Shown here piece by piece: positions 4,934 through 32,386 of a stretch of DNA of 35,345 nucleotides. This stretch comes from a virus. The stretch is taken from positions 1 through 35,345 of the IMG/VR virus record IMGVR_UViG_3300005747_000068, one strand, 5' to 3'. The notes below the pieces were generated by a model. It was not told the DNA's origin. It did no database searches and worked only from the letters and a program-made list of their open reading frames with translations. Positions within the stretch are counted from its first letter, which is position 1. The number at the start of each line of letters is the position of its first letter. The position numbers and the translations under genes are program-made.

Positions 4934-5791
4934 TTAAAACGGTAAGTCCTCATCCACATCCATTTTAGATTGTGGGTCCTCAGTTTTTTCTGTTGTTGAC
5001 TCAGTTGTAACACTACTTCCGAATGTTGTTTCAGTATTGTCACCGTATACGTATTTCTTAAGTTCTGTATCCCAAACAGGTGTCTCACCTCTTGCGATTG
5101 CCTCTAAATACTCAACAGGTTTCTGTGAGTAAACATCTTGCCAAGTTAACTCATCTTCAACCCATTCCGTCATCTGACTCTTATCAGAGTGTATCGGTGC
5201 TGGGTCATCATACATAATAGTCTTAACTACTGTATATTCAATTCCTGAAGGTGTTTTTGCCTTAGACAAATCAACAATCAAGTCACGACCTTCGTTAGCA
5301 TCAGTCACATCACCTTTTTGTCTCCAAATTGGAATGATTTTATCCAAGATACCCTCTTGTTTGTAATTATCTTTGAATCTCCAAAACTTTGGTCCGTGGT
5401 CTTCATTCTCACGGTCAATAACCTTAACGATGTAGAATTTACGTGGACGGTACTGACGAGCCAATTCCTTATCTGAGTCTTTACCTGTTGACGTCAATTC
5501 TTCGTAAACCTCAGTAAGTGGTGAACGCTCACCGTCATTTTTACCTGGGTCAAATAATTTAGTCCATTTACCGTCGATTTGAACTTCGTGATACCATACT
5601 TCTTTGAATGGTGATGAACCGTCTGGTGTTGGAAGGATACGAATAACCTTTTGTCCTGACTTAGTTCCTTTTGGAAGATACGTTGTAAAGTATCTTTTTA
5701 ATCTGTCTTCTTGAGAGATTCTGTTACCTCCACCCGTGTTTTGGGTGTTCTTTTCATACTGCGATAACACAGCATCTAATGCATTTGCCAT
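4934..5791 (-). CDS. 32: Single-stranded DNA-binding protein, T4 gp32 type
   Basis: Coats single-stranded DNA at the fork and organises replication and recombination proteins. It has 285 residues (T4 gp32 has 301). The N-terminal part is basic (GGGNRISQEDRLKRYF) as expected for the cooperativity region. The core has the gp32-like run RKFYIVKVIDRENEDHG then FWRFKDN. The C-terminus is acidic and ends DVDEDLPF, the partner-binding tip typical of phage and bacterial SSBs. The protein contains no cysteine, so the zinc-binding site of T4 gp32 is absent; the corresponding region reads NDGERSPLTEVYE. The gene has its own upstream promoter-like sequence and a hairpin downstream. The family call is strong. 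Confidence 0.88.
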   Translation of the reverse strand: MANALDAVLSQYEKNTQNTGGGNRISQEDRLKRYFTTYLPKGTKSGQKVIRILPTPDGSSPFKEVWYHEVQIDGKWTKLFDPGKNDGERSPLTEVYEELTSTGKDSDKELARQYRPRKFYIVKVIDRENEDHGPKFWRFKDNYKQEGILDKIIPIWRQKGDVTDANEGRDLIVDLSKAKTPSGIEYTVVKTIMYDDPAPIHSDKSQMTEWVEDELTWQDVYSQKPVEYLEAIARGETPVWDTELKKYVYGDNTETTFGSSVTTESTTEKTEDPQSKMDVDEDLPF

Positions 5792-5948: not shown

Positions 5949-6566
5949 TTATTCTGTTGGACCGTTGAATGATTTACGAATGTCGGAATCAGAATAATTC
6001 TCAACCTCATCAGAAGTTAAAATATATTCATTCTTACCCGTTTTTTCCATATCATCTTCTTTATCTGCAAAGAAATCGGTTAACTTTTGATTATAAGGAT
6101 AGCTATCTAAACTTCTTAGTTGTAGTTTCTCCTCAGGTGATTTTTGACGATACTTCTCGACTTTAGTTTCAATATCATTAATCTTAGTGAAAATTTGGTC
6201 CATCTGAGAAAGTTTACTTTCTAAATCAGATAACTTCTCGAACATTGTATCCATATACTCGTCTTGTTTATCTGATATCTTGTTCTGTGTATTCACTAAA
6301 TCAGTTATATCTAACTCTTCAGTGTCCCCACCCATGTCTTTATCAGACTCAACATTTCCTTCGTCGTCAATTTTTTCAACTTCAGGGTCAGTATCAACAT
6401 CAACTGGTTCTGCAATTTCTTCAGCACCACCTTCGACATCCATATCTAACTCCAAATCATCACCAGCTTCATCAGCTGTGTCTGTGGGTTCTTCTTGTTC
6501 AATAAGGTAACGATTAATAGTATTGTGTCTATTAAGTTCCTCAAGTATTTTTTTATCTATTGACAT
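5949..6566 (-). CDS. Acidic coiled-coil protein, unknown
   Basis: I do not recognise the family. The 205-residue protein has a short helical N-terminus (DKKILEELNRHNTINRYLIE), then a strongly acidic low-complexity stretch at about 25-88 rich in Asp and Glu. A heptad-like helical region follows at about 90-142, including EKLSDLESKLSQMDQIFTKI, and the tail is polar. No signal peptide or membrane segment is visible. It is the last gene before the terminator of the baseplate operon, 11 bases after the 74-aa gene, so it is probably expressed late. An assembly chaperone, scaffold-like or virion-associated role is possible but rests on position and composition only. Confidence 0.8.
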   Translation of the reverse strand: MSIDKKILEELNRHNTINRYLIEQEEPTDTADEAGDDLELDMDVEGGAEEIAEPVDVDTDPEVEKIDDEGNVESDKDMGGDTEELDITDLVNTQNKISDKQDEYMDTMFEKLSDLESKLSQMDQIFTKINDIETKVEKYRQKSPEEKLQLRSLDSYPYNQKLTDFFADKEDDMEKTGKNEYILTSDEVENYSDSDIRKSFNGPTE

Positions 6567-6577
6567 AATTTTTTATT

Positions 6578-6802
6578 TTAACCATTAAGTAATGTCTTAA
6601 CACCATGAGGTGTTTCGACCTTTAAGGTTCTATTAACTTGTCTAGTATTATCAACTCGCTCAATAAGTCCGTCTCTCATACTAACTGTATAACAATCACC
6701 TGTGTCTAAGTCACAAACCTCTTTGTAACCATTTCCGGCATCTTTTTCAGTAATTCTAGTGTCTTTTGACAAATACTGGTCTAATAATGATTTAACATTC
6801 AT
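6578..6802 (-). CDS. Small unknown protein (74 aa)
   Basis: No family recognised. The start is set at ATG 6802 (opening MNVKSLLDQYLSKD), because a TATTTATA promoter-like element ends only 15 bases upstream. A longer reading frame from 6907 would run backwards into the end of the giant hub gene. The protein has two nearby cysteines in the segment VCDLDTGDCYTV and is otherwise hydrophilic and probably soluble. It lies between the hub gene and the acidic coiled-coil gene and is probably expressed late with them. It could be a minor structural or assembly protein. Confidence 0.7.
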   Translation of the reverse strand: MNVKSLLDQYLSKDTRITEKDAGNGYKEVCDLDTGDCYTVSMRDGLIERVDNTRQVNRTLKVETPHGVKTLLNG

Positions 6803-6817
6803 AATATTACTTTTATA

Positions 6818-6825
6818 TATAAATA
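6818..6825 (-). promoter_or_regulatory. Late-promoter-like TATTTATA element
   Basis: The minus strand reads TATTTATATATAAAAG, 15 bases before the ATG of the 74-aa gene, in a 43-base gap. It matches the element before the sheath, tube, tape measure and neck genes. Confidence 0.6.
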
Positions 6826-6845
6826 TACGTTTATTATCGTTTTTC

Positions 6846-9800
6846 TTACAATCCGTTATTTTTAGACCATCTAAAGGCCTGTTTAAATATTGGGATTGAA
6901 TTATCATACGTCTTTTTTATTAATTTTTCATCGTCAGTGGTAGGGTTATTTAATATATCATTAAGTTCATTATCAGTATTAATTCTTCTAAACCAATTTC
7001 TAATATATACCTTAGAATACGCAACAGCATAATTATCTTCACTAAAGTCAGAACCTATATAGTCTGTCAGTTGAGTACGTACTGAGTTACTATTATATCT
7101 AACCAATAATGGGTCAAAAGACCCGTTAGGGTCACTGAATGAAAAGTAACTTCTAGCCCTACCGTCAGATGTTGATGATACACAAAATTGTCCACTAACT
7201 TTATCATTATCTAAACCTGACCACCGACCACTATCAGTAGTTAACCCAACGTAGTTATTATTAATTCCTTTAACATAGCCATTTTTATAACCTTGTTCTC
7301 TCCAAACAGTACCAATTGTTAATCTTTTAACATCAAAATTAGTAGTTTTAGTATTAACATACGTTATAATATCATTATAAGAATACTGTGTGTTTTGTTT
7401 AGTTATGAAATCTAAACCTTGGTAAGCACTTACTGGCGAACAATTACTTGAACCCACACTTGAACCATTAGTAGAGTTAGTACTAACACCATTAGAGTTT
7501 GAAGACCCATTCTGTAATGTTGGTGTTGTAGAAGGTGTTTCATTTGTTGGTTTTACTTCTTTAGGTTTTTTATATGATTTATTAATTCTCTTTAGTAAAT
7601 CAATATTAACACTCATTGTTAGTTCGGTAATACTCGGGAATGAATATTTAGAAATTCTAACACCACTAAATGTAGTGATAAAATTACCAGGACTAATACT
7701 GTGAGACACATCTGTAATCCAATACGGACCTGTGAACATTGGTACGTATCTTAGGTTAAAATACATTGTCGGCTGTATCATCATATTACCCATTGACATA
7801 ATCTGACAATTATAACTTCTATTTTTATAGATATTATATAATGAAGTTGATTGTTGAGATGTTTTCGAACCTTTACTCTGATTCGCCATGTCTGTTAATA
7901 TACGGAACGATTCTGAGGTATCTTTAAATTGTGATTGGTCTAAACTTACGGATTTAAATATCCCTTGATTTCTCACACCAAAGTCAACATTGAAACCAAC
8001 TACTTTATTTGAGAAAGCATAATCTGTTTTATTTGTTTGATTTTCCCTAAGAACCTGTGCCTTGTACATATCAAAACTATCATCACCAAACCTATAATCT
8101 ATATTTTCTGTTTGTTTTAAATGTTTTGACACTTTATCTGTGTATAAACATAAAAACCGAGGTCTACTTTTATTATCGTCAACCTCTAAGAACGTACCAA
8201 ATACGTCGGACGCTGAGTTTTCAAAACCTTCTTCAGGTTTCGCGTTTTTAGATGGTTCATTAACACCATAAAAATTCGTATAGGATGGTAACGCCATAAA
8301 TAATAGGTTATTACCCTTAAATAAATGACCTATCAATGTGTAAATAGAATTAGAACCTGACTTATCATTAATAAACCCTGTTAGTGTACTAACATCCACA
8401 ATAAGCTTATCACCAATATCTCTGTTCGCCCTATCTAAAAATAAAAATTCCTCAAATAATGTTCTATTTTGAAAGTCACCCCCTGCAATCCATTTATCAT
8501 TTAATGTTTTAAAGAATTCATACAACTCTAACTTAGCCACCTCTCCCGACATAGATGTTTTAATCTGTTCAGTCTCTTCAGTAATTTTAGGTAAGTCTTT
8601 ATTTAGTTTGGTAAATAAATTGTTTTGTACCTTCTTTTGTGAATTATCCATCAATGTCAAATATTGATTAAACAGCGACATAAACTTAGTACTTGTCATT
8701 GTTGGGTCTTGATATTTTTGAGTGGCGTAAATTTGTATGATTGGACCCAATTGTCTAACATTATTTTCACTAAATAGAATATCCATTTCAACAAAGAAAT
8801 CTGTAATTGTTGAACCACTATCACTATACTTCATTCTATCCTCATCATACACACCGACCACTAATCTTAGGGCGTTCCACGCATCGGGGTATTGTGATTC
8901 ACTAATAGCTATTGTTGTTAAATTACTTGCAGTGGGTAGTGAGTCATTAATATAGTTACCAAAATTAATTTTTTGATTCTGAGTTTGATATTTTGTATCA
9001 TCAGTGAATGAGTACCAAACACGTCTATTAAAATTAGAAGGATTACCCTGTTTAAAAATAAAAGTTTCTGATAATAAATTTTGAACAGTATTCCTTAAAC
9101 TAATCATTTGTTGATTGGCAATTATTTGTCCGTCTAAATCAGATTGACCTGTCAATGTTGGTCTATTAATAAAAAACAAACCATTTAAACTTGTCATTAA
9201 ATTTGGTTTAAGAATATCTTCAGCGGGTATATTATCACGAACAGGGTCTTTACAGAACTCTAAAAATTCAGTCTCAAACATATCCATAATACCCTCATTA
9301 AACACCGCAAGTATTTCATCGATTGATGAGTATTCAGATACCGACTCTAAACTAAATGCTGTTTGGTTGTTAGTTGTATTATCAATAGTTTTTATATATT
9401 GTCTATATGTGGGTTTTTTTATTAAAGTGGTATCAAAATATCCATAGTGTGAACCACCCCAAAGAGTTTTTATTGAACCATCATATAACGATTGTCTTAA
9501 CGGTTCCCCCTCATATATACCAGGAGTTTTACATATTTCAAACTCATACTGATTAAAATTACCACCACCCGCAGAAGGATAACATAATAACTTTTCTGTA
9601 TTATTAGTATTATCATAGGTTTTAGGTTTATCGTAAAAAGCATAATATGAGGACACACTATACGTAGTGTTTCCTGAAGACATATTAATAATGGAATCTG
9701 AATTACTCGCAACCTTTAAACCATTACCATCAAATTGTGTATTACCACTAAAATAATTATCAAAGTCTGACTGGGTCGTACCACTAATAAACTCATCATA

Positions 9801-22825: not shown

Positions 22826-25800
22826 TTAGATATCTTCGAAAGATGCTCCTGTTGGAGTTATCAAGAATTCAATATCGATGAATTCAAGTGCTCTCGTTGG
22901 TTTAAGGTAAATCTTACCCGTTAACGTGTTATTATCCAAATCTTCAGGTGTGTTTTCTACAACCACACGGAAGTCAATAAGACCTCTATCTCTTCTAATT
23001 GAGTCTAAGATTGGATTAACCGCATCTAAGAAGTCTTGTCTTACTTGGTCATCATTCTGTTCGAACAATAATCTTACCGCCACCGCAGAAATCAATTTAC
23101 GTGCTTGTAACAATAATCTTCTTACGTTAATTCTATCAAGTGCAGATTCTCTAAGTTGTAGAGTTTTATTACCCCAAATTACGGTACCGACATCAGAGAA
23201 GGTTGCAATTGGGTTTAATCTACCTTGATATAGTGTATCTCTATCTTCTTGTGTCAACTTCTTACGTGCTTTAACAGAATTAACTAAACCTCTTGTGTAA
23301 CCCGCAGTTGCGAACCAAGGGAAAGCTACGTTATCCGTTAACGCCAAGTTTTTAACTACCTCAGATGTTGGTGGAATATAAACTTGTGTGTTATTTACAC
23401 CATCTCTTGTTAAAATCCATGGGTAATAAGTTGCAGTGTAGTTAGAATCAATATCTGATTCCTCTAAATTGTCAACCGCTTCATCAGGATAGATAAAGTC
23501 CGTATCAAATGACGATGTGTTAGGTACAAACATATTATAATCAGGTGTTGTACAGATGTAGATAGAATCAGCTCTATCTGTTTCAATCATATCAATCGCA
23601 TCCTCAACTAAGTTTGAATGATTAGTATAATCAATACCTGGTGTTACAAAAATATTAATGTTTACCGCTTCAGGGTTTTCAAAAGTTTTCTGACCCATTA
23701 AGTAAGCGTAGTAATCAGTATTTGCCCAATCAGTTGAATCTTCACCTACTGTAATTTGTTTAAACTGTCCCCATCCTGTTGCAGTTGGGAATGTAGGTGA
23801 AGGTGTAGCACCTAATAAGTAACCTGTACCACCTAATCTAAACGAGTCTTGATTAGAACGGAATTCTCTGTAAACATCCCATCCGTCAAAACCACCTTTA
23901 GCTAATAAAGTGAATTTACGCGCATTTAATTTATAGTAAGGATTAGTTTGGGATGTTGGTTCACTTGTGAAATCCGCGACACCGACATCAAACGATGACG
24001 TACCTGAACTAATATATTGACCAGAAATTGTAACAACAGTTGCTCCTGAATCCATATGGAAACCTTTTGTGAGGTAAGACCAATCACTACTTTCAGTTGC
24101 CGTTCCTAAGTTAGATGGGTTTTGTTTACCACCATAGTTAAAGAAGTCTGGGTCAATTCCAACAGTATTAGAAATACCTAAATAAGTTTTTCTCACTTTA
24201 TCACCTGAACTTCTCGTAGCATTACTACTTCCTGCGGTTGTACCGAATGGTGGGTTATAAATAACTTCACCTGGTGTGTTATATTTTGTTTTATATTCAA
24301 CAAAAGGACTCCTTGCCCCTGAGTATTCTCTCATCACATAACCTTCAAATCCACATGGTAGTGCATCTACAGGAGCATCTTCATCCATGTCTAACATTAT
24401 GAATCTTGACTTAAGTTCAAACTCACCGTTAGAAGTACCAACTTTCTTAGCCACGTAACCATTCTCACCTGGACTCATAGTACAGTTTGTGAATTTTTCT
24501 AAAACTACCGGATTTGCATCTGTATCGAAATAATCACGAACGATTATATCAAATGTGTTATTTGAGAATGACATATTTGCCAATGACACTTTTACTAAAT
24601 TATTAGCCGCGTTACCATCAGATATTAAGATAAACCTAAATAACCTATCTACTTTAGTACCTCTTAGTTCTGAAACCACAAACGGTGTTGATGGTGTTTG
24701 ATATTGTTCCAAATACCAACCAATTGAAGTATTATTAGCGTCATCTTCTCTAGCTGAAGGTAAACTAATTAATTCACAATTAAGTCCACGAACTTTACCA
24801 AGTCTATACCCTTGTGTTAATAATGAGTAATATGTTTCTTCCACAAATAATGGGAACTCACTACTTGTTTTACCGAAATTAGTAGAACCAAAAACTTTAG
24901 TTAGATAGTTTGTATCTGATAGTGAAAAAGATGTTTTAAATGTGAAAACATCACCACCCGACGTTAAACCTGATATTCCAAATGATGAGTAAGGATTTTT
25001 CTGTACATCAGCGTATGAGCCTGAACAATCCATTACCACATTAGTTAACCCTGTTACGTTGTAAACGGGTCCACCATCAGAGTTGTCATTAATGCCTCTT
25101 GAACGAAGTGTTGCAACAACAACATCATTATATTCAGTGAATGCCGTTGCATTGTATGTTAATACAGTACCACTAATCGTACCTGCAAAGACACTAGGAC
25201 TTGTTTCTGTAAATGTCCCCGGTTCCATAACTGCGTTAAATGACATACCCGAATAGTTGTCCCCCGAACCAGGTTCAAAACACCCGTAATACCAAGGGTC
25301 CATTAATGAGTCATCATAATCTGCAACTGAATTATATAAACCATCAACACCTAAGTTATTAGTCACTGATGTATAACCGTTACCTGTATACGCAGAATAT
25401 ACTGAATCTGTTAATACTCCCCATTGAGAAGAGGTTGTAGCAGATAATGAATTATCTAACATTAGATTGAGTACAAAAGTTTGTAACTGACCTTTAATAG
25501 TTGCTGAATCACCGTCATATAAGGTAATGTCATCATTAAAATAATCACTAATTGGTGATGGGATAGTACCAGTAAATTCAACAGTGTCTGTTGAACCTGT
25601 ACTACCCGTAAATGTTACCGACCAAGTAGTTTCTACAGGTGTTGATAATGTTGCTGGGTCTAAGTTTGCTTGAGTCGTTATAGACCAAGACGGACCTGCA
25701 TCATAACCTGATAAACCTAATACTCTGGTTACAAATAATTGATTTGATTGTTGTAAATATGCTTTCGCAATATATGCCGCTTCATATTTTGGAATTTGTG

Positions 25801-26008
25801 TGTTCACAAATTTAGTTGGATTTGTTCCCCCGAAGTAGGATTGAAACTCGTCAAAGTTTGTGATAAAAATTGGTTCAAATGCGGGACCTGTTAATGTCTC
25901 CCCTACTAAACCTAAAGTTGTTACCCCAACACTTTGTGCTACGAAACTCAAATCTCTTTCTGATGTATATACACCTGGTGAAACGAAGACTGTGTTTGAA
26001 CTTGCCAT
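22826..26008 (-). CDS. 18: Tail sheath protein (extra-large)
   Basis: Forms the contractile outer sheath. It opens with the classical sheath N-terminus: VFVSPGVYTSERDLSFV, then FGGTNPTK. The C-terminal 330 residues carry the conserved sheath core: NIFVTPGIDYTNHSNLVEDA, VYIPPTSEVVKNLALTDN, WGNKTLQLRESALDRINVRR, LLLQARKLISAVAVRLLFEQ and LIDFRVVVENTPEDLDNNT. It has 1060 residues, against 659 for T4 gp18; the excess is in the middle (about 110-700), as extra Ser/Thr/Gly-rich beta domains. The tube protein is of normal length, so the extra mass should project outward. A TATTTATA element lies 33 bases upstream of the ATG. Confidence 0.93.
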   Translation of the reverse strand: MASSNTVFVSPGVYTSERDLSFVAQSVGVTTLGLVGETLTGPAFEPIFITNFDEFQSYFGGTNPTKFVNTQIPKYEAAYIAKAYLQQSNQLFVTRVLGLSGYDAGPSWSITTQANLDPATLSTPVETTWSVTFTGSTGSTDTVEFTGTIPSPISDYFNDDITLYDGDSATIKGQLQTFVLNLMLDNSLSATTSSQWGVLTDSVYSAYTGNGYTSVTNNLGVDGLYNSVADYDDSLMDPWYYGCFEPGSGDNYSGMSFNAVMEPGTFTETSPSVFAGTISGTVLTYNATAFTEYNDVVVATLRSRGINDNSDGGPVYNVTGLTNVVMDCSGSYADVQKNPYSSFGISGLTSGGDVFTFKTSFSLSDTNYLTKVFGSTNFGKTSSEFPLFVEETYYSLLTQGYRLGKVRGLNCELISLPSAREDDANNTSIGWYLEQYQTPSTPFVVSELRGTKVDRLFRFILISDGNAANNLVKVSLANMSFSNNTFDIIVRDYFDTDANPVVLEKFTNCTMSPGENGYVAKKVGTSNGEFELKSRFIMLDMDEDAPVDALPCGFEGYVMREYSGARSPFVEYKTKYNTPGEVIYNPPFGTTAGSSNATRSSGDKVRKTYLGISNTVGIDPDFFNYGGKQNPSNLGTATESSDWSYLTKGFHMDSGATVVTISGQYISSGTSSFDVGVADFTSEPTSQTNPYYKLNARKFTLLAKGGFDGWDVYREFRSNQDSFRLGGTGYLLGATPSPTFPTATGWGQFKQITVGEDSTDWANTDYYAYLMGQKTFENPEAVNINIFVTPGIDYTNHSNLVEDAIDMIETDRADSIYICTTPDYNMFVPNTSSFDTDFIYPDEAVDNLEESDIDSNYTATYYPWILTRDGVNNTQVYIPPTSEVVKNLALTDNVAFPWFATAGYTRGLVNSVKARKKLTQEDRDTLYQGRLNPIATFSDVGTVIWGNKTLQLRESALDRINVRRLLLQARKLISAVAVRLLFEQNDDQVRQDFLDAVNPILDSIRRDRGLIDFRVVVENTPEDLDNNTLTGKIYLKPTRALEFIDIEFLITPTGASFEDI

Positions 26009-27896: not shown

Positions 27897-29651
27897 ATGC
27901 AAGAAAATAAAGTAGTATCAAAGATACCCGAAATTAAGGCAACACGTATTTTAGAAGATTACGAAGGGTACAACAATTATATACTTTTGTTGAAAAAAAA
28001 GATGCAAATAAAAAAGCATTTTAAAATGACCCGAGCACAGGCCGACTATATTATTGATTTTCATAAACGAACACCAAAAGTTGCAAGAAAGTGGGTTGAG
28101 TTAGATGAATACTTTGCTAATAAAATGAAAGAAGAAAAATTACTTTCTAAAAAACCAACTCAAATTTATGTTGAAAAAATATTGGTAGAGAAGGACAAAT
28201 CATTTCATATTTATGGTAAATTATTTGAAACAGAGGAACTCCACGATTTTTGGTTACCCAAGGCGGCAGTAATACAAAATAAGGAAAGAAAGGTTGAGGT
28301 TGACTACACTAAATATTCAAACAGACCACCACTAGAACATCAGAAACTTGCCGTCGAAAAACTAGTTGGTAACGATAAATACATTTTAGCAGATGACATG
28401 GGTCTTGGTAAGACGACCGCAACGGTAATGGCAGCATTAGAGTCAGGGTCAAAAAAAATATTAATCATATGCCCCGCATCTTTAAAAATCAATTGGCAAA
28501 GGGAAATTGAAAACTACACGGATAAGTCAATATCGATAGTAGAGGGTAAAAAATGGGAACCCGCCGATTTTATGATAATAAACTTCGACATATTAAAAAA
28601 CTTCCACAACCTAAAAAAAATAAAAGAATCTGTTATCCTTAATTATGGTTTTGATTTAGTGGTAATAGATGAGGCACATTACATACAAAACAAACAAGCA
28701 CAGAGAACAAAAATTGCAAATGATATTTGTAAAAAGGTTGGTAAAGTGTGGTTACTAACGGGAACACCAATGACCTCAAGACCAATTAATTATTACAACC
28801 TACTGGACTTGGTCGACTCACCAGTTGCGTATAATTGGATGGCATATGCAATTCGATATTGTGAGGGTTACCAATTTAGCGTGGGGAATAGAAGAGTGTG
28901 GAATGTTAATGGAGCATCAAATCTATTAGAACTTAGAGACAGAACAAAAACACACGTACTAAGAAGATTAAAAGAAGATATTTTAGACTTACCTGAAAAA
29001 ATATTAACACCTGTTTACCTCAGACTTAAATCTAAACAATACGAGGCAATGATGGGTGAATATTTTGAGTGGTATGATAATTCAGAGGAATCGTCCTCAT
29101 TAACAGTGCAATTCTCAAAGCTGATGAAAGTAAGACAAATCATCGCAGAAGAAAAAGTTAGAAATACAATAGAAATTGCACAAAACATTATAGAACAAGG
29201 AAAAAAAGTTATTATTTTTACAAACTTTACAGATACATTAAATCAAATAAAAACTCATTTTGGTAAAGAGGCTGTCACTTTAGATGGACGAATGAGTAAA
29301 CCTAACCGACAGCACTCCGTTGACGAGTTTCAAACAAACGACAAGGTAAAAGTATTTGTTGGTAATCTTAAGGCTGCGGGTGTTGGTATAACACTAACAG
29401 CCGCGGAAGCAGTTATCATGAACGATTTATCGTTTGTACCTTCGGACCATTCACAGGCCGAAGATAGAGCATATAGATATGGTCAAAAATCCAATGTGTC
29501 TGTCTTTTACCCAATTTTTGAAAATACTATTGAAGGTGCAATATATGATATCTTATCAAAAAAGAAAAACGTATTTGAAACAGTTATGGGTGATAATGAA
29601 GATAAAGGGAATATTGTAGAAGAAATATTAAACTCTATCACAAGAAGATAG
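27897..29651 (+). CDS. SNF2-family helicase (SMARCAL1-like)
   Basis: ATP-driven DNA translocase, possibly for fork regression or recombination. The 584-residue protein has a 140-residue N-terminal region and both SNF2 lobes: motif I DDMGLGKTT at 166-174, motif Ia near LIICPAS, DEAH box VVIDEAHYIQ at 255-263, motif III LLTGTPM at 286-292, lobe-2 motif GVGITL at 495-500, and motif VI QAEDRAYRYGQ at 520-530. The DEAH/RAYRYGQ pair is typical of SNF2 rather than T4 UvsW (which has a different domain order). It is on the plus strand, divergent from the gp14-like gene. It opens the plus-strand run that continues into the SOD fusion gene, neck and small beta protein. Confidence 0.92.
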   Translation: MQENKVVSKIPEIKATRILEDYEGYNNYILLLKKKMQIKKHFKMTRAQADYIIDFHKRTPKVARKWVELDEYFANKMKEEKLLSKKPTQIYVEKILVEKDKSFHIYGKLFETEELHDFWLPKAAVIQNKERKVEVDYTKYSNRPPLEHQKLAVEKLVGNDKYILADDMGLGKTTATVMAALESGSKKILIICPASLKINWQREIENYTDKSISIVEGKKWEPADFMIINFDILKNFHNLKKIKESVILNYGFDLVVIDEAHYIQNKQAQRTKIANDICKKVGKVWLLTGTPMTSRPINYYNLLDLVDSPVAYNWMAYAIRYCEGYQFSVGNRRVWNVNGASNLLELRDRTKTHVLRRLKEDILDLPEKILTPVYLRLKSKQYEAMMGEYFEWYDNSEESSSLTVQFSKLMKVRQIIAEEKVRNTIEIAQNIIEQGKKVIIFTNFTDTLNQIKTHFGKEAVTLDGRMSKPNRQHSVDEFQTNDKVKVFVGNLKAAGVGITLTAAEAVIMNDLSFVPSDHSQAEDRAYRYGQKSNVSVFYPIFENTIEGAIYDILSKKKNVFETVMGDNEDKGNIVEEILNSITRR

Positions 29652-29671: not shown

Positions 29672-29679
29672 TATTTATA
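29672..29679 (+). promoter_or_regulatory. Late-promoter-like TATTTATA element of the SOD-fusion gene
   Basis: The plus strand reads TATTTATAAATAAAACACA, 16 bases before the ATG of the SOD-fusion gene, in a 44-base gap after the helicase. Confidence 0.6.
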
Positions 29680-29695
29680 AATAAAACACAAACTT

Positions 29696-31234
29696 ATGGA
29701 GTTTAAAAAGAGCCAAGAAAAAATCCGTGAAATAGAAAACAAAATTACGGAATCAGAAAGAAAAGATATCGTTACCGAGAATAAAAAAGGTAGTAAAATG
29801 ATAACCGCAATAAAGTTACCATATTCATATTCGTCGTTAAAACGATTCATAGATAAAGAAACAATGAATGTTCATTATAACCAACACTATAAAGGTTATA
29901 TTAGAAAACTTAACAAAGAGTTAGAAAATGTTAAAGATAAAGACTTAGATTTAGAGTCTTTAATAAAGGGTATTTCAAGATATAGTAATACCATCAAAAA
30001 TAATGCTGGTGGAGCATATAATCATGAGTTATTTTGGCAGATGTTATCACCAAAACAACAACAACCAAATGGTCCGGTATTAGATAAAATTAAGAAGAAG
30101 TTTAAAACATTTTCAAATTTTAAGAAAACATTTAAAAACAAAGCTTTAGGTCAATTTGGCTCAGGATGGGTATGGTTAGTACTCACAAAAAGTGGTGATG
30201 TTAAAATTGTAACTACATCTAATCAAGATAATCCGTTAATGAACACTATTAAATTTGGTGGGATACCATTATTAGGTTTAGATTTATGGGAACACGCATA
30301 TTACTTAAAATACAAAAATAAAAGAAACGAATATATTGATAATTTCTTTACAGTTATTAATTGGTCTTTTGTTAATAAACAATTTGATTCACATCAAAAG
30401 AGTAAACTTAACGAATCAAAAGTTGTGAAGAGCTTAATTAGTGAGGGTTTATCTAAAGGATGTTCACCACAACAGGTAAACACATATAGAATGGTCTTTA
30501 ACAGAAATCCACAAGTTAAGAAAAAGTTTATGTACGCAATTATGGATATACTTAAAGAAGTTTATTCTGAATTTCATTACGAAAAAAATCAATACGCAGA
30601 TGGACAAATGTCAGGAATATACGATTTTGAACAACCTGGTCGTTCAGTAATTAATAAATTAAACACTAACTACTCCGCATTTTGTATTTTAGTTAATGAC
30701 CTTAATGCAGTATTAAAACACTACGGGCAGAACCCATTAAATTTTGTAGGTGTTAATGATAAACAACAGTTGAGGGAGGTACAGAGAATGATAAAACTTA
30801 TGATTGAATTCAGATATCGTATTTTTAATCAAGAATCAGGGACATTCCAAAGTATTATGGCATCATTAGACAAAACAAATAAATTTGGTGATGAAAGAGA
30901 AATAAAGGCTGTTGTTAATATGAAAGATATCTTTAACACTAAAAAAGTATTCAAAGTAGGTGAACTAGGTGGGAAAGATGATATGATTGGAGGTATTGAT
31001 GCAACAGTAGAAATAAATGGCGAAACTAAAACAATACAAATAAAACCATTTAATAATACTGAAGAAAGTGAAGGTAGAGTCACCGTATTTGGTACAGGTA
31101 ATGTTAAACCCTATAAAACCGACTATATGTGTTTTCATGATAACTCTAAAGGTACGTTAGTTTTTGAAAATAATGATACAAAAATTGTTAACGGTAGATA
31201 TACTTTCCCTGTCGATAGTTTAATAAAACAATAA
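29696..31234 (+). CDS. Superoxide dismutase (Fe/Mn family) fused to a C-terminal PD-(D/E)XK-like domain
   Basis: A 512-residue fusion. Residues 35-235 form a complete Fe/Mn SOD: LPYSYSSLKRF, ligand His60 in NVHYNQHYKGY, ligand His110 in AYNHELFW, QFGSGWVWLV, and ligands Asp196 and His200 in GLDLWEHAYYLKY. The gate Tyr68 is present, the usual His before it is Tyr65, and NQDNPLM (Gln177) suggests the Mn-type. An internal ATG at 29798 would give a standard SOD start; the first 34 residues are charged. Residues 236-512 are not SOD: a helical part (235-395) and a C-terminal segment about 398-470 with GDEREIKAVVNMKD, GGIDATVEING and IQIK (Glu402, Asp435, Gln448-Ile-Lys450), the pattern of PD-(D/E)XK nucleases. 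TATTTATA precedes it; neck gene follows. Confidence 0.88.
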   Translation: MEFKKSQEKIREIENKITESERKDIVTENKKGSKMITAIKLPYSYSSLKRFIDKETMNVHYNQHYKGYIRKLNKELENVKDKDLDLESLIKGISRYSNTIKNNAGGAYNHELFWQMLSPKQQQPNGPVLDKIKKKFKTFSNFKKTFKNKALGQFGSGWVWLVLTKSGDVKIVTTSNQDNPLMNTIKFGGIPLLGLDLWEHAYYLKYKNKRNEYIDNFFTVINWSFVNKQFDSHQKSKLNESKVVKSLISEGLSKGCSPQQVNTYRMVFNRNPQVKKKFMYAIMDILKEVYSEFHYEKNQYADGQMSGIYDFEQPGRSVINKLNTNYSAFCILVNDLNAVLKHYGQNPLNFVGVNDKQQLREVQRMIKLMIEFRYRIFNQESGTFQSIMASLDKTNKFGDEREIKAVVNMKDIFNTKKVFKVGELGGKDDMIGGIDATVEINGETKTIQIKPFNNTEESEGRVTVFGTGNVKPYKTDYMCFHDNSKGTLVFENNDTKIVNGRYTFPVDSLIKQ

Positions 31235-31252: not shown

Positions 31253-31260
31253 TATTTATA
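31253..31260 (+). promoter_or_regulatory. Late-promoter-like TATTTATA element of the neck gene
   Basis: The plus strand reads TATTTATAATAAAAGTTA, 13 bases before the neck ATG. It agrees with the tape measure element over 15 bases even though the two genes are on opposite strands. Confidence 0.65.
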
Positions 31261-31273
31261 ATAAAAGTTAACG

Positions 31274-32386
31274 ATGTCAATAATTTTAGAACCACAAAGA
31301 ACCAAGCTATATACTAGAATTCGTCATCTTTTAGGTGCACCTTTAAGGGGTATTGAAATAGAAGATGAAATGATGGATTCATTATTGGAATTATCTATTG
31401 AAGATTACTCGCAATATGTAAATGATTGGTTAATTGAATCACAATGGACATCACTATATGGTTTGAATCAGGATACTCAGTCCGTTGCCAAAGCATTAAT
31501 AACACGTTCTTTAGATTGGGAAACACAATACACTTATGCATATTCTAAAATTGTTGGTTTACAAGCGGGTGGTGATTCTGAATTAAAAAAGGACTATTTT
31601 GACCTTAAGGCTAACCAACAAATTTATGAAATACCTGCAGGTAGGGAAATAAATGAACTTTTATGGTTTACACGCGCCGAACTTGACGCAGCTTTCTTTG
31701 ACCCATTTATGGGTGGATTCGGCGGATTTGGTGGTATTGGTTTAGGTGGTGGTGCCGGTTTCTCACAAATGGGTGGTCAGGGTAATTACTTTGTTTCACC
31801 AGGTTTTGACATCTTACTTAGAATGCAAGATATTAATATAAAAAGAAGACTTATAGGTGGAGAACTAACTTATAGAATAACTGCTTTACCTGAGGGTAAA
31901 AAGGCTATACATCTTTATAATGTTCCTGGTGGTAAGTTTGATTTTGGTAACATGGCTAACAACAACTATAGAGTGTGGTATTGGTATTATGAAACAGACG
32001 ATAGGGAAAGTTGTTTAGCTAAAAATCCTGATATTGTTAGATTACCATCAGACGTTAATATGGAAAATTTAAATTGGGCGGAATTAAATTCACCCGCACA
32101 AACATGGGTCCGTAGATGGTTTACCGCATATGTTAAAGAGACACTGGGTCGAGTAAGAGGTAAATTTAGTGGTAATTTAAAAACACCTGATTCAGAAGTT
32201 CAATTAGAATACGATTCATTATTGAGTGAATCTAAAGATGAGAAGTCTAAACTAGAAGAAGAATTAAAAATGAGACTAGAAAGACTTCGTCCTGATAAAA
32301 TGATGGAAGTTAAGGCCAATCAAGCAGAAAGTTTAAACAAATCACTACAATATAGAGCACTTCCTCGTCAAATTTATATTATATAA
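31274..32386 (+). CDS. 13: Neck protein, gp13-like
   Basis: Joins the portal to the tail. It has 370 residues (T4 gp13 has 309). It opens with TKLYTRIRHLLGAPLRGIEI, then EDEMMDSLLELSIEDYSQYV: the helix-and-acid pattern of T4-like neck proteins (LGxPxxxxEI followed by an acid-rich helix). It continues with the Tyr/Trp-rich EINELLWFTRAELDAAFFDP and a glycine-rich loop (GGFGGFGGIGLGGG). A late segment carries WVRRWFTAYVKETLGRVRGK, then YDSLLSESKDEKSKLEEELK, ending in coiled coil. It shares TATTTATA with the tail genes, and its stop overlaps the next ATG by one base. It is split from the gp14-like gene by the SNF2 and SOD genes. Confidence 0.72.
   Translation: MSIILEPQRTKLYTRIRHLLGAPLRGIEIEDEMMDSLLELSIEDYSQYVNDWLIESQWTSLYGLNQDTQSVAKALITRSLDWETQYTYAYSKIVGLQAGGDSELKKDYFDLKANQQIYEIPAGREINELLWFTRAELDAAFFDPFMGGFGGFGGIGLGGGAGFSQMGGQGNYFVSPGFDILLRMQDINIKRRLIGGELTYRITALPEGKKAIHLYNVPGGKFDFGNMANNNYRVWYWYYETDDRESCLAKNPDIVRLPSDVNMENLNWAELNSPAQTWVRRWFTAYVKETLGRVRGKFSGNLKTPDSEVQLEYDSLLSESKDEKSKLEEELKMRLERLRPDKMMEVKANQAESLNKSLQYRALPRQIYII

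Follow-up and report, generated by a model that had tools for sequence, protein, structure and literature searches.

The window, by which we mean the whole stretch of 35,345 nt of viral DNA that was analyzed, encodes an uninterrupted protein of 512 aa (29696..31234, +) with relatives in IMG/VR, in which an Fe/Mn superoxide dismutase (SOD) that is complete and intact by sequence is joined to a second half that is, in structure models, a helical region followed by a nuclease-like PD-(D/E)XK fold. The fusion is real, and the reading that we favor, to which we give about an even chance, is that it is a capsid-targeted precursor that would be cut into a free SOD and a nuclease-like protein, both of which would be ejected. 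From its N-terminus the protein consists of the following parts, all encoded on the plus strand: a variable N-terminal extension (residues 1–34; 29696..29797) that is a candidate capsid-targeting propeptide with the motifs ITE19↓S and VTE28↓N (arrows mark candidate cuts), the SOD domain (residues 39–228; 29810..30379), a linker with two conserved [LI]xE motifs (residues 229–256; 30380..30463), the helical half of the C-terminal domain (residues 257–392; 30464..30871), which is drawn as helices in the AlphaFold2 model and carries the GRSVINKLNTNY motif, and the PD-(D/E)XK-fold nuclease-like domain (residues 393–512; 30872..31231).

We read 160 protein strings, comprising 133 fusions and 27 forms without the SOD, and two of the IMG/VR readings took in the best 80 of at least 454 and the best 80 of at least 479 relatives; collapsing near-copies left 125 distinct fusions and 26 SOD-less forms, and the larger set was used for the promoter and shuffled-extension counts given below. 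Both halves are spanned in 19 of 20 IMG/VR loci at 61–99% identity, the remaining one (L020) being ended by its contig, and they are also joined in the best 80 of at least 454 loci of a distant IMG/VR search. A preliminary description of this DNA had named an assembly error at the join as something that would speak against its reading, and had suggested looking for homologous fusions in other T4-like phages. The recurrence of the same join in 125 distinct proteins among the IMG/VR relatives read rules out an assembly error. For 11 of 12 chosen pairs (one locus lay outside the set), Nei–Gojobori estimates of dN were 0.02–0.11 in the SOD and 0.02–0.23 in the C-terminal half, with dS from 0.47 to saturation; because dN is far below dS in both halves, both appear to be kept as proteins under constraint (purifying selection). 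The further claim that no standard family joins the two halves stood in part: the join has no named family, but a member of the group had already been deposited, because UniProt/BFVD A0A6J5L953 (501 aa), entered as "superoxide dismutase [uncultured Caudovirales phage]" and thus labeled for its SOD half alone, is 46% identical in an alignment of 486 columns, counting gaps. This accession was not found in open-licence PMC papers, and the titles and abstract openings of the open-licence PMC literature yielded neither a SOD–nuclease fusion nor a virion-borne phage SOD. A passage of PMC9405923 mentions a virion SOD of large eukaryotic viruses, and PMC9875498 has bacterial SOD as its subject. Within the literature searched, neither the architecture nor the processing hypothesis has a precedent, whereas the kinds of parts are already known.

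The SOD half matches both Pfam domains of the enzyme, Sod_Fe_C over residues 125–228 (4.8e-39) and Sod_Fe_N over residues 39–118 (2.3e-19), above cut-off (133 and 70 bits vs. 20.9 and 27), and the closest solved chains in a PDB sequence search are named SODs (best 1.4e-54). His60, His110, Asp196, His200, Tyr68, and Gln177 are found at the positions given for them in the preliminary description, and H60, Y68, H110, Q177, D196, E199, H200, and Y203 are identical in all 125 distinct fusions; we take the His-His-Asp-His set to be the metal ligands, the Tyr to be the gate, and the Gln to be an active-site residue, following the preliminary description, which called the Gln Mn-type. Compared with Fe/Mn SODs of solved structure (PDB 3tjt, 6gsc), both Pfam domains, the ligands, the gate Tyr, the Gln, E199, and Y203 are the same, whereas the SOD of the fusion is embedded in a 512-aa phage protein and falls into a separate clade. 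In a quick tree that used 32 of 64 usable bacterial SODs from 80 fetched cellular SODs, most of them from Bacteroidota, the 17 phage representatives formed one clade (SH-aLRT 100) apart from the 32 near cellular SODs, which suggests a single gain. A separate second SOD gene was ruled out in all eight SOD-bearing records, where the fusion is the sole Sod_Fe_C match (one match per record in eight of nine records, and none in the SOD-less record G010). INPHARED also holds unannotated "phage" entries (H1–H7, e.g., OR846937 and OR850395) whose SODs are 41–44% identical to the query and which are perhaps host DNA.

Residues 236–512, the helical half included, gave no sequence match at threshold in Pfam, PHROGs, or PDB. 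Membership of a known sequence family found no support at threshold, phrog_5018 giving a weak alignment (0.003–0.04, function unknown); annotated phages in INPHARED gave no match (best E 4), and a pattern scan of bacterial and archaeal genomes, in which 39 stretches were tried, confirmed none. An AlphaFold2 model of residues 236–512 built with 29 sequences (pLDDT 86.7, pTM 0.74) has mainly helices up to approximately residue 412 and strands thereafter, with a PD-(D/E)XK core at model residues 158–277, corresponding to residues 393–512 of the protein. With this model as a query, Foldseek returned I-Ssp6803I as the best hit (E 6e-3) together with Hjc resolvases, none reaching 1e-3, and VIA-align gave Hjc (Z 8.3), NhoI/Eco15I (7.4–7.6), and I-Ssp6803I (7.4) over approximately 100 residues, the tool advising caution at Z less than 8. 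These scores are modest, yet the top rows all agree on PD-(D/E)XK enzymes. The similarity to Hjc is one of fold only, as no Pfam, PHROG, or PDB match at threshold indicates an Hjc-type sequence family. In the model E402 lies in a long helix, D435 beside a strand, and Q448 and K450 on the next strand; all four are identical in the 125 distinct fusions and invariant down to 33% identity, and among the 26 SOD-less forms Glu402 is present in all, and D435, Q448, and K450 are present in every form but one, a fragment too short to reach them (25 of 26). The PD-(D/E)XK pattern recognized in the preliminary description is thus matched by a modeled core and by invariant residues, and the match to a non-nuclease phage domain that would have spoken against it did not appear at threshold, the nearest solved folds being Hjc and I-Ssp6803I. 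The core fold and the E...D...QxK arrangement are common to this domain and to archaeal Hjc, I-Ssp6803I, and NhoI/Eco15I, whereas the fusion adds a helical half of approximately 135 residues with its own GRSxxNxLNTN motif, and its last motif reads QxK, with Q substituted for D/E. A similar C-terminal fold (TM 0.78, 24% identity) is seen in BFVD A0A8D9CCA0, an uncharacterized marine phage protein of 1113 aa, which raises the possibility that the domain is used in more than one architecture.

The fusion gene carries the late-type element that the preliminary description had placed upstream of it: TATTTATA lies at 29672..29679 (+), 16 bases before the ATG, and a second motif match lies at 31253..31260 (+) before the neck ORF. 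Within 60 bases upstream, TATTTATA is present in 116 of 133 fusion ORFs and its reverse complement TATAAATA in four, and TATTTAT is present in 130; the SOD-less genes have TATTTATA in 3 of 27 cases and TATTTAT in 18. G001, a related record whose fusion is 99% identical, has TATTTATA before 57 of 249 ORFs, compared with 23 for the reverse form, and there it precedes the sheath, tube, portal, prohead protease, and neck ORFs and not the major capsid ORF. The late element of T4 is TATAAATA, of which TATTTATA is the reverse complement, so that the strand mattered in these counts. The coding-strand form of the late element in this phage group is TATTTATA, and it probably acts as a promoter.

What points to processing is a set of [LI]xE motifs that flank the SOD and look like prohead-protease cut sites. 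Cleavage by T4 gp21 follows L/I-X-E (PMC9026906), and proteins enter the T4 head by means of N-terminal capsid-targeting sequences, several of these proteins being ejected later (PMC9026906, PMC5694885). Of the 123 fusions with a full N-terminal extension, which is otherwise variable, 121 have an [LI]xE motif 5–14 residues ahead of the SOD fold; the remaining two, the protein of the window and a near twin, have VTE, with V at P3, and the ITE19 of the window lies further upstream. Before collapsing, [LI]xE was found ahead of the SOD in 129 of 131 fusions compared with 50.6 of 131 for shuffled extensions. The commonest N-terminal site is LITE↓M (23 of 53 representatives), and 47 of the 53 have a Met directly after the site, apparently the old start of the SOD. 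In L067–L069 (~5270–5400) a frame break splits the N-terminal extension from the SOD, as seen in the sequence of L067 and from the same short ORF in L068 and L069, and the SOD's own Met could then serve as a fresh start of translation; L067 and L068 are outside the 123 because of this break.

Two further candidate sites lie in the linker, KLNE240↓S (30413..30415, +) and LISE250↓G (30443..30445, +), where 122 (first site) and 123 (second site) of the 125 fusions combine L/I at P3 with Glu at P1, while P2 and most intervening residues are variable; K237 is also conserved (52 of 54). The whole protein has eight Glu columns that are at least 90% conserved, two of which are these linker sites, with L/I at P3 in 98%. 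Among the six others, L/I likewise occupies P3 ahead of E199 in 85% of fusions and ahead of E361 in 61%; [LI]xE is a short motif, and this pattern counts against the cleavage reading. In a model of the full-length protein (pLDDT 80, pTM 0.47) the segments of at least three residues under pLDDT 50 are residues 20–32, 236–248, and 250–252, and they contain E28, E240, and E250; the model draws a low-confidence helix over residues 223–250, and E240 and E250 could form one face of a linker helix. The motif is not significantly enriched near the N-termini of late proteins in general: in residues 9–40, [LI]xE occurs in 25 of 57 late versus 71 of 192 other ORFs of G001 (P = 0.22) and in 46 of 87 versus 90 of 214 in a second related record, G007 (P = 0.057).

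A gp21-family protease and gp23 are encoded in all six related records, G001 included; the window's own 35-kb record gave no match to the protease in a search whose controls gave none either. All six capsid proteins carry HLINE↓A(A/S) within the N-terminal region, where T4 gp23 is cut, and by analogy HLINE↓A would be their cut site. In G007, 18 ORFs begin with one of three recurring N-terminal tags, defined by regular expressions written after inspection of late ORFs (G001 has only three such ORFs). All 18 have TATTTAT upstream, compared with 108 of 395 ORFs overall; within residues 12–30, [LIV]xE occurs in 15 of them, compared with 129 of 377 untagged ORFs. The tags, of MSKIIRLTENDLIRLVNKVIKEQ-, MNLNENISRVKELMG-, and MKYIITESQ-types, are near-identical on otherwise different late ORFs (L420–L435, e.g., at record coordinates 195661, 198877, 211229, 211780, and 213103, and 201940, 204694, 205274, and 205862). 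These peptides look like a family of capsid-targeting tags, and because all tagged ORFs have the late element, the tagging of late proteins seems to be habitual in this phage group. The N-terminal extension of the SOD fusion differs in type from the G007 tags.

Successive IMG/VR searches found 54, 65, at least 454, and at least 479 relatives of the C-terminal domain. A tree built from 76 representatives of the core domain needs two changes to account for the forms without SOD, and each of their two groups is placed among rows that bear it; the tree is midpoint-rooted, which makes the order of gain and loss a reading, and on that reading the SOD-less forms arose by loss of the SOD. L292 and L293 (309 aa) are in frame without the SOD, the first SOD residues (SINE↓MKKIEIEKL) being joined to the linker (KSIISE↓G), and L292 sits among the SOD-bearing rows; judged from this junction, the pair carries a natural deletion scar of the SOD. 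The SOD seems to be a cassette that can be taken out of a gene whose neighbors are conserved. Four of the 26 SOD-less forms are without [LI]xE ahead of the core; L334 and L335 have almost no N-terminal extension, and in L282 Q replaces the Glu of the site. The core therefore does not always need the tag. The candidate sites on both sides of the SOD, the low-confidence linkers, and the lineages that keep the nuclease-type domain without the SOD together suggest two separable cargoes. The suggestions that the SOD is tethered to a DNA-binding part or that the protein is a redox-sensitive nuclease are not supported; a virion-carried SOD, which had also been suggested, agrees with the prohead-protease-like sites.

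The fusion ORF adjoins a head-tail adaptor or neck protein ORF (phrog_211, 65-residue match, 8.9e-11; 31274..32386, +), in keeping with the earlier placement of the gene in a neck cluster, and its upstream neighbor is an SNF2-related helicase (phrog_62; 27897..29651, +) that we take to be of UvsW type. The order helicase, fusion gene, neck adaptor, small ORF, and DNA polymerase is kept in all eight divergent loci, SOD-less ones included. L171 has one small ORF between the helicase and the fusion; extra ORFs precede the neck gene in L163 and L164 (both 6413–7552), L159 (6407–7555), and L160 (6399–6704), and extra ORFs precede the polymerase in L163 and L164. Elsewhere in the window, a tail sheath ORF (22826–26008, −; 1060 aa) matches sheath families over residues ~760–1057 only, leaving approximately 750 N-terminal residues without a match, and no RNA families or tRNAs were found within the 35,345 nt. 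A gene for ribosomal protein S21 (bS21) is present in 11 of 13 records (e.g., L098:15157–15348), and in G001 the portal and protease genes are encoded on the other strand. The carriers resemble known bS21-encoding Bacteroidetes phages in both the gene and the opposite-strand layout, and the records here reach 322 kb; Chen et al. (PMC9723584) predict Bacteroidetes hosts for such phages, and the word "superoxide" occurs 0 times in the main text of their paper. From this prediction and from the nearest cellular kin of the SOD we infer that these giant T4-like phages probably infect Bacteroidota.

On the reading that we favor, a giant T4-like phage of Bacteroidota would make, late in infection, a protein consisting of an N-terminal targeting peptide, the SOD, the linker, and the PD-(D/E)XK nuclease-like domain. 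The N-terminal peptide would take this precursor into the prohead core, as the capsid-targeting sequences of T4 do, and a gp21-type prohead protease would cleave after [LI]xE once before the SOD, usually right before its apparent old start Met, and twice between the SOD and the nuclease domain. The products in the capsid would be an SOD of approximately 210 residues, its native length, and a nuclease-like protein of approximately 260 residues. Both enzymes would be ejected with the DNA, the SOD clearing superoxide early in the next infection and the nuclease-like part acting on DNA. We infer packaging, cutting, ejection, both enzyme activities, and the host; the sequences themselves show both domains with conserved catalytic residues, a late element, a prohead protease in related records together with a similar motif in their capsid protein, the conservation of the [LI]xE motifs, low model confidence at these motifs, and SOD-less relatives with a deletion scar. 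The fusion resembles the internal head proteins of T4 (Alt, IPI–IPIII) in having a late-type element and an N-terminal extension ending in [LI]xE, in the presence of a protease and a capsid protein of T4 type in related records, and in a cargo without evident structural need; it differs in that an SOD and a nuclease-like domain, separated by two more candidate cuts, make up the putative cargo.

A clearly less probable explanation, though one with evidence on its side, is that the protein stays whole inside the cell, where its C-terminal domain would resolve junctions or debranch DNA late in infection as a partner of the UvsW-type helicase and the packaging machinery, the SOD being a tethered guard of the DNA or of the nuclease metal and the [LI]xE motifs belonging to a linker helix. 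Hjc Holliday-junction resolvases are among the nearest folds, the gene keeps its place between helicase and neck in the eight divergent loci, the core is retained where tag and SOD are gone, and the linker is modeled as a helix. EndoVII, RusA, and RuvC, moreover, were each absent from all nine records searched (eight of 139–321 kb and one of 61 kb, perhaps incomplete); RusA and RuvC were matched in control genomes, whereas EndoVII matched in two control genomes without exceeding the cut-off in either, and the search covered these three resolvases only. A whole resolvase would leave unexplained the third [LI]xE motif ahead of the SOD, the retention of Glu and L/I amid variable neighbors, and the low model confidence at those places.

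That the SOD is a plain auxiliary metabolic enzyme boosting the host's defense against reactive oxygen species, the fusion merely supplying a late promoter and a stable partner, strikes us as improbable. Its active-site residues are intact, a defense of this kind has been proposed for phages, with SODs among the genes named in a passage of PMC6802176 on freshwater phages, and giant phages of Vibrio and Pseudomonas have stand-alone SOD genes. Those SODs, however, are separate genes of 189 aa (Vibrio phage 2.275.O) and 182 aa (Pseudomonas phage Callisto), whereas the SOD described here lies inside a conserved gene, between candidate cut sites, and is the sole Sod_Fe_C match in the eight SOD-bearing records searched. 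It is very unlikely that the protein is an uncut structural part of the virion at the neck or portal that guards the tail or the end of the DNA against oxidation and stands in for head completion proteins such as T4 gp2 and gp4. In favor of this, the gene directly precedes the neck ORF, which has its own late element; against it, no head-completion protein is among the sequence or structure matches listed, the SOD is dispensable in the SOD-less lineages, and the linkers are of low model confidence.

Extended from the single protein to the group, the favored reading is that hundreds of giant Bacteroidota phages pack a working SOD and a nuclease as one precursor, cut it with the prohead protease, and inject both products, so that superoxide would be removed from the start of infection, and that the gene has, between targeting peptide and nuclease, a cargo slot with one SOD insertion and later deletion; we hold this broader statement to be slightly less probable than an even bet. 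The group is widespread in IMG/VR, as the number of relatives of the C-terminal domain indicates, and that family, named by no library searched, is a candidate resolvase or packaging nuclease for these phages. The phage enzymes known to be ejected mostly act on host transcription, DNA, or restriction. An ejected antioxidant enzyme, if the proposal is true, would imply that superoxide meets incoming phage DNA or proteins early, and phage entry would be tied to oxidative conditions in lakes and seas.
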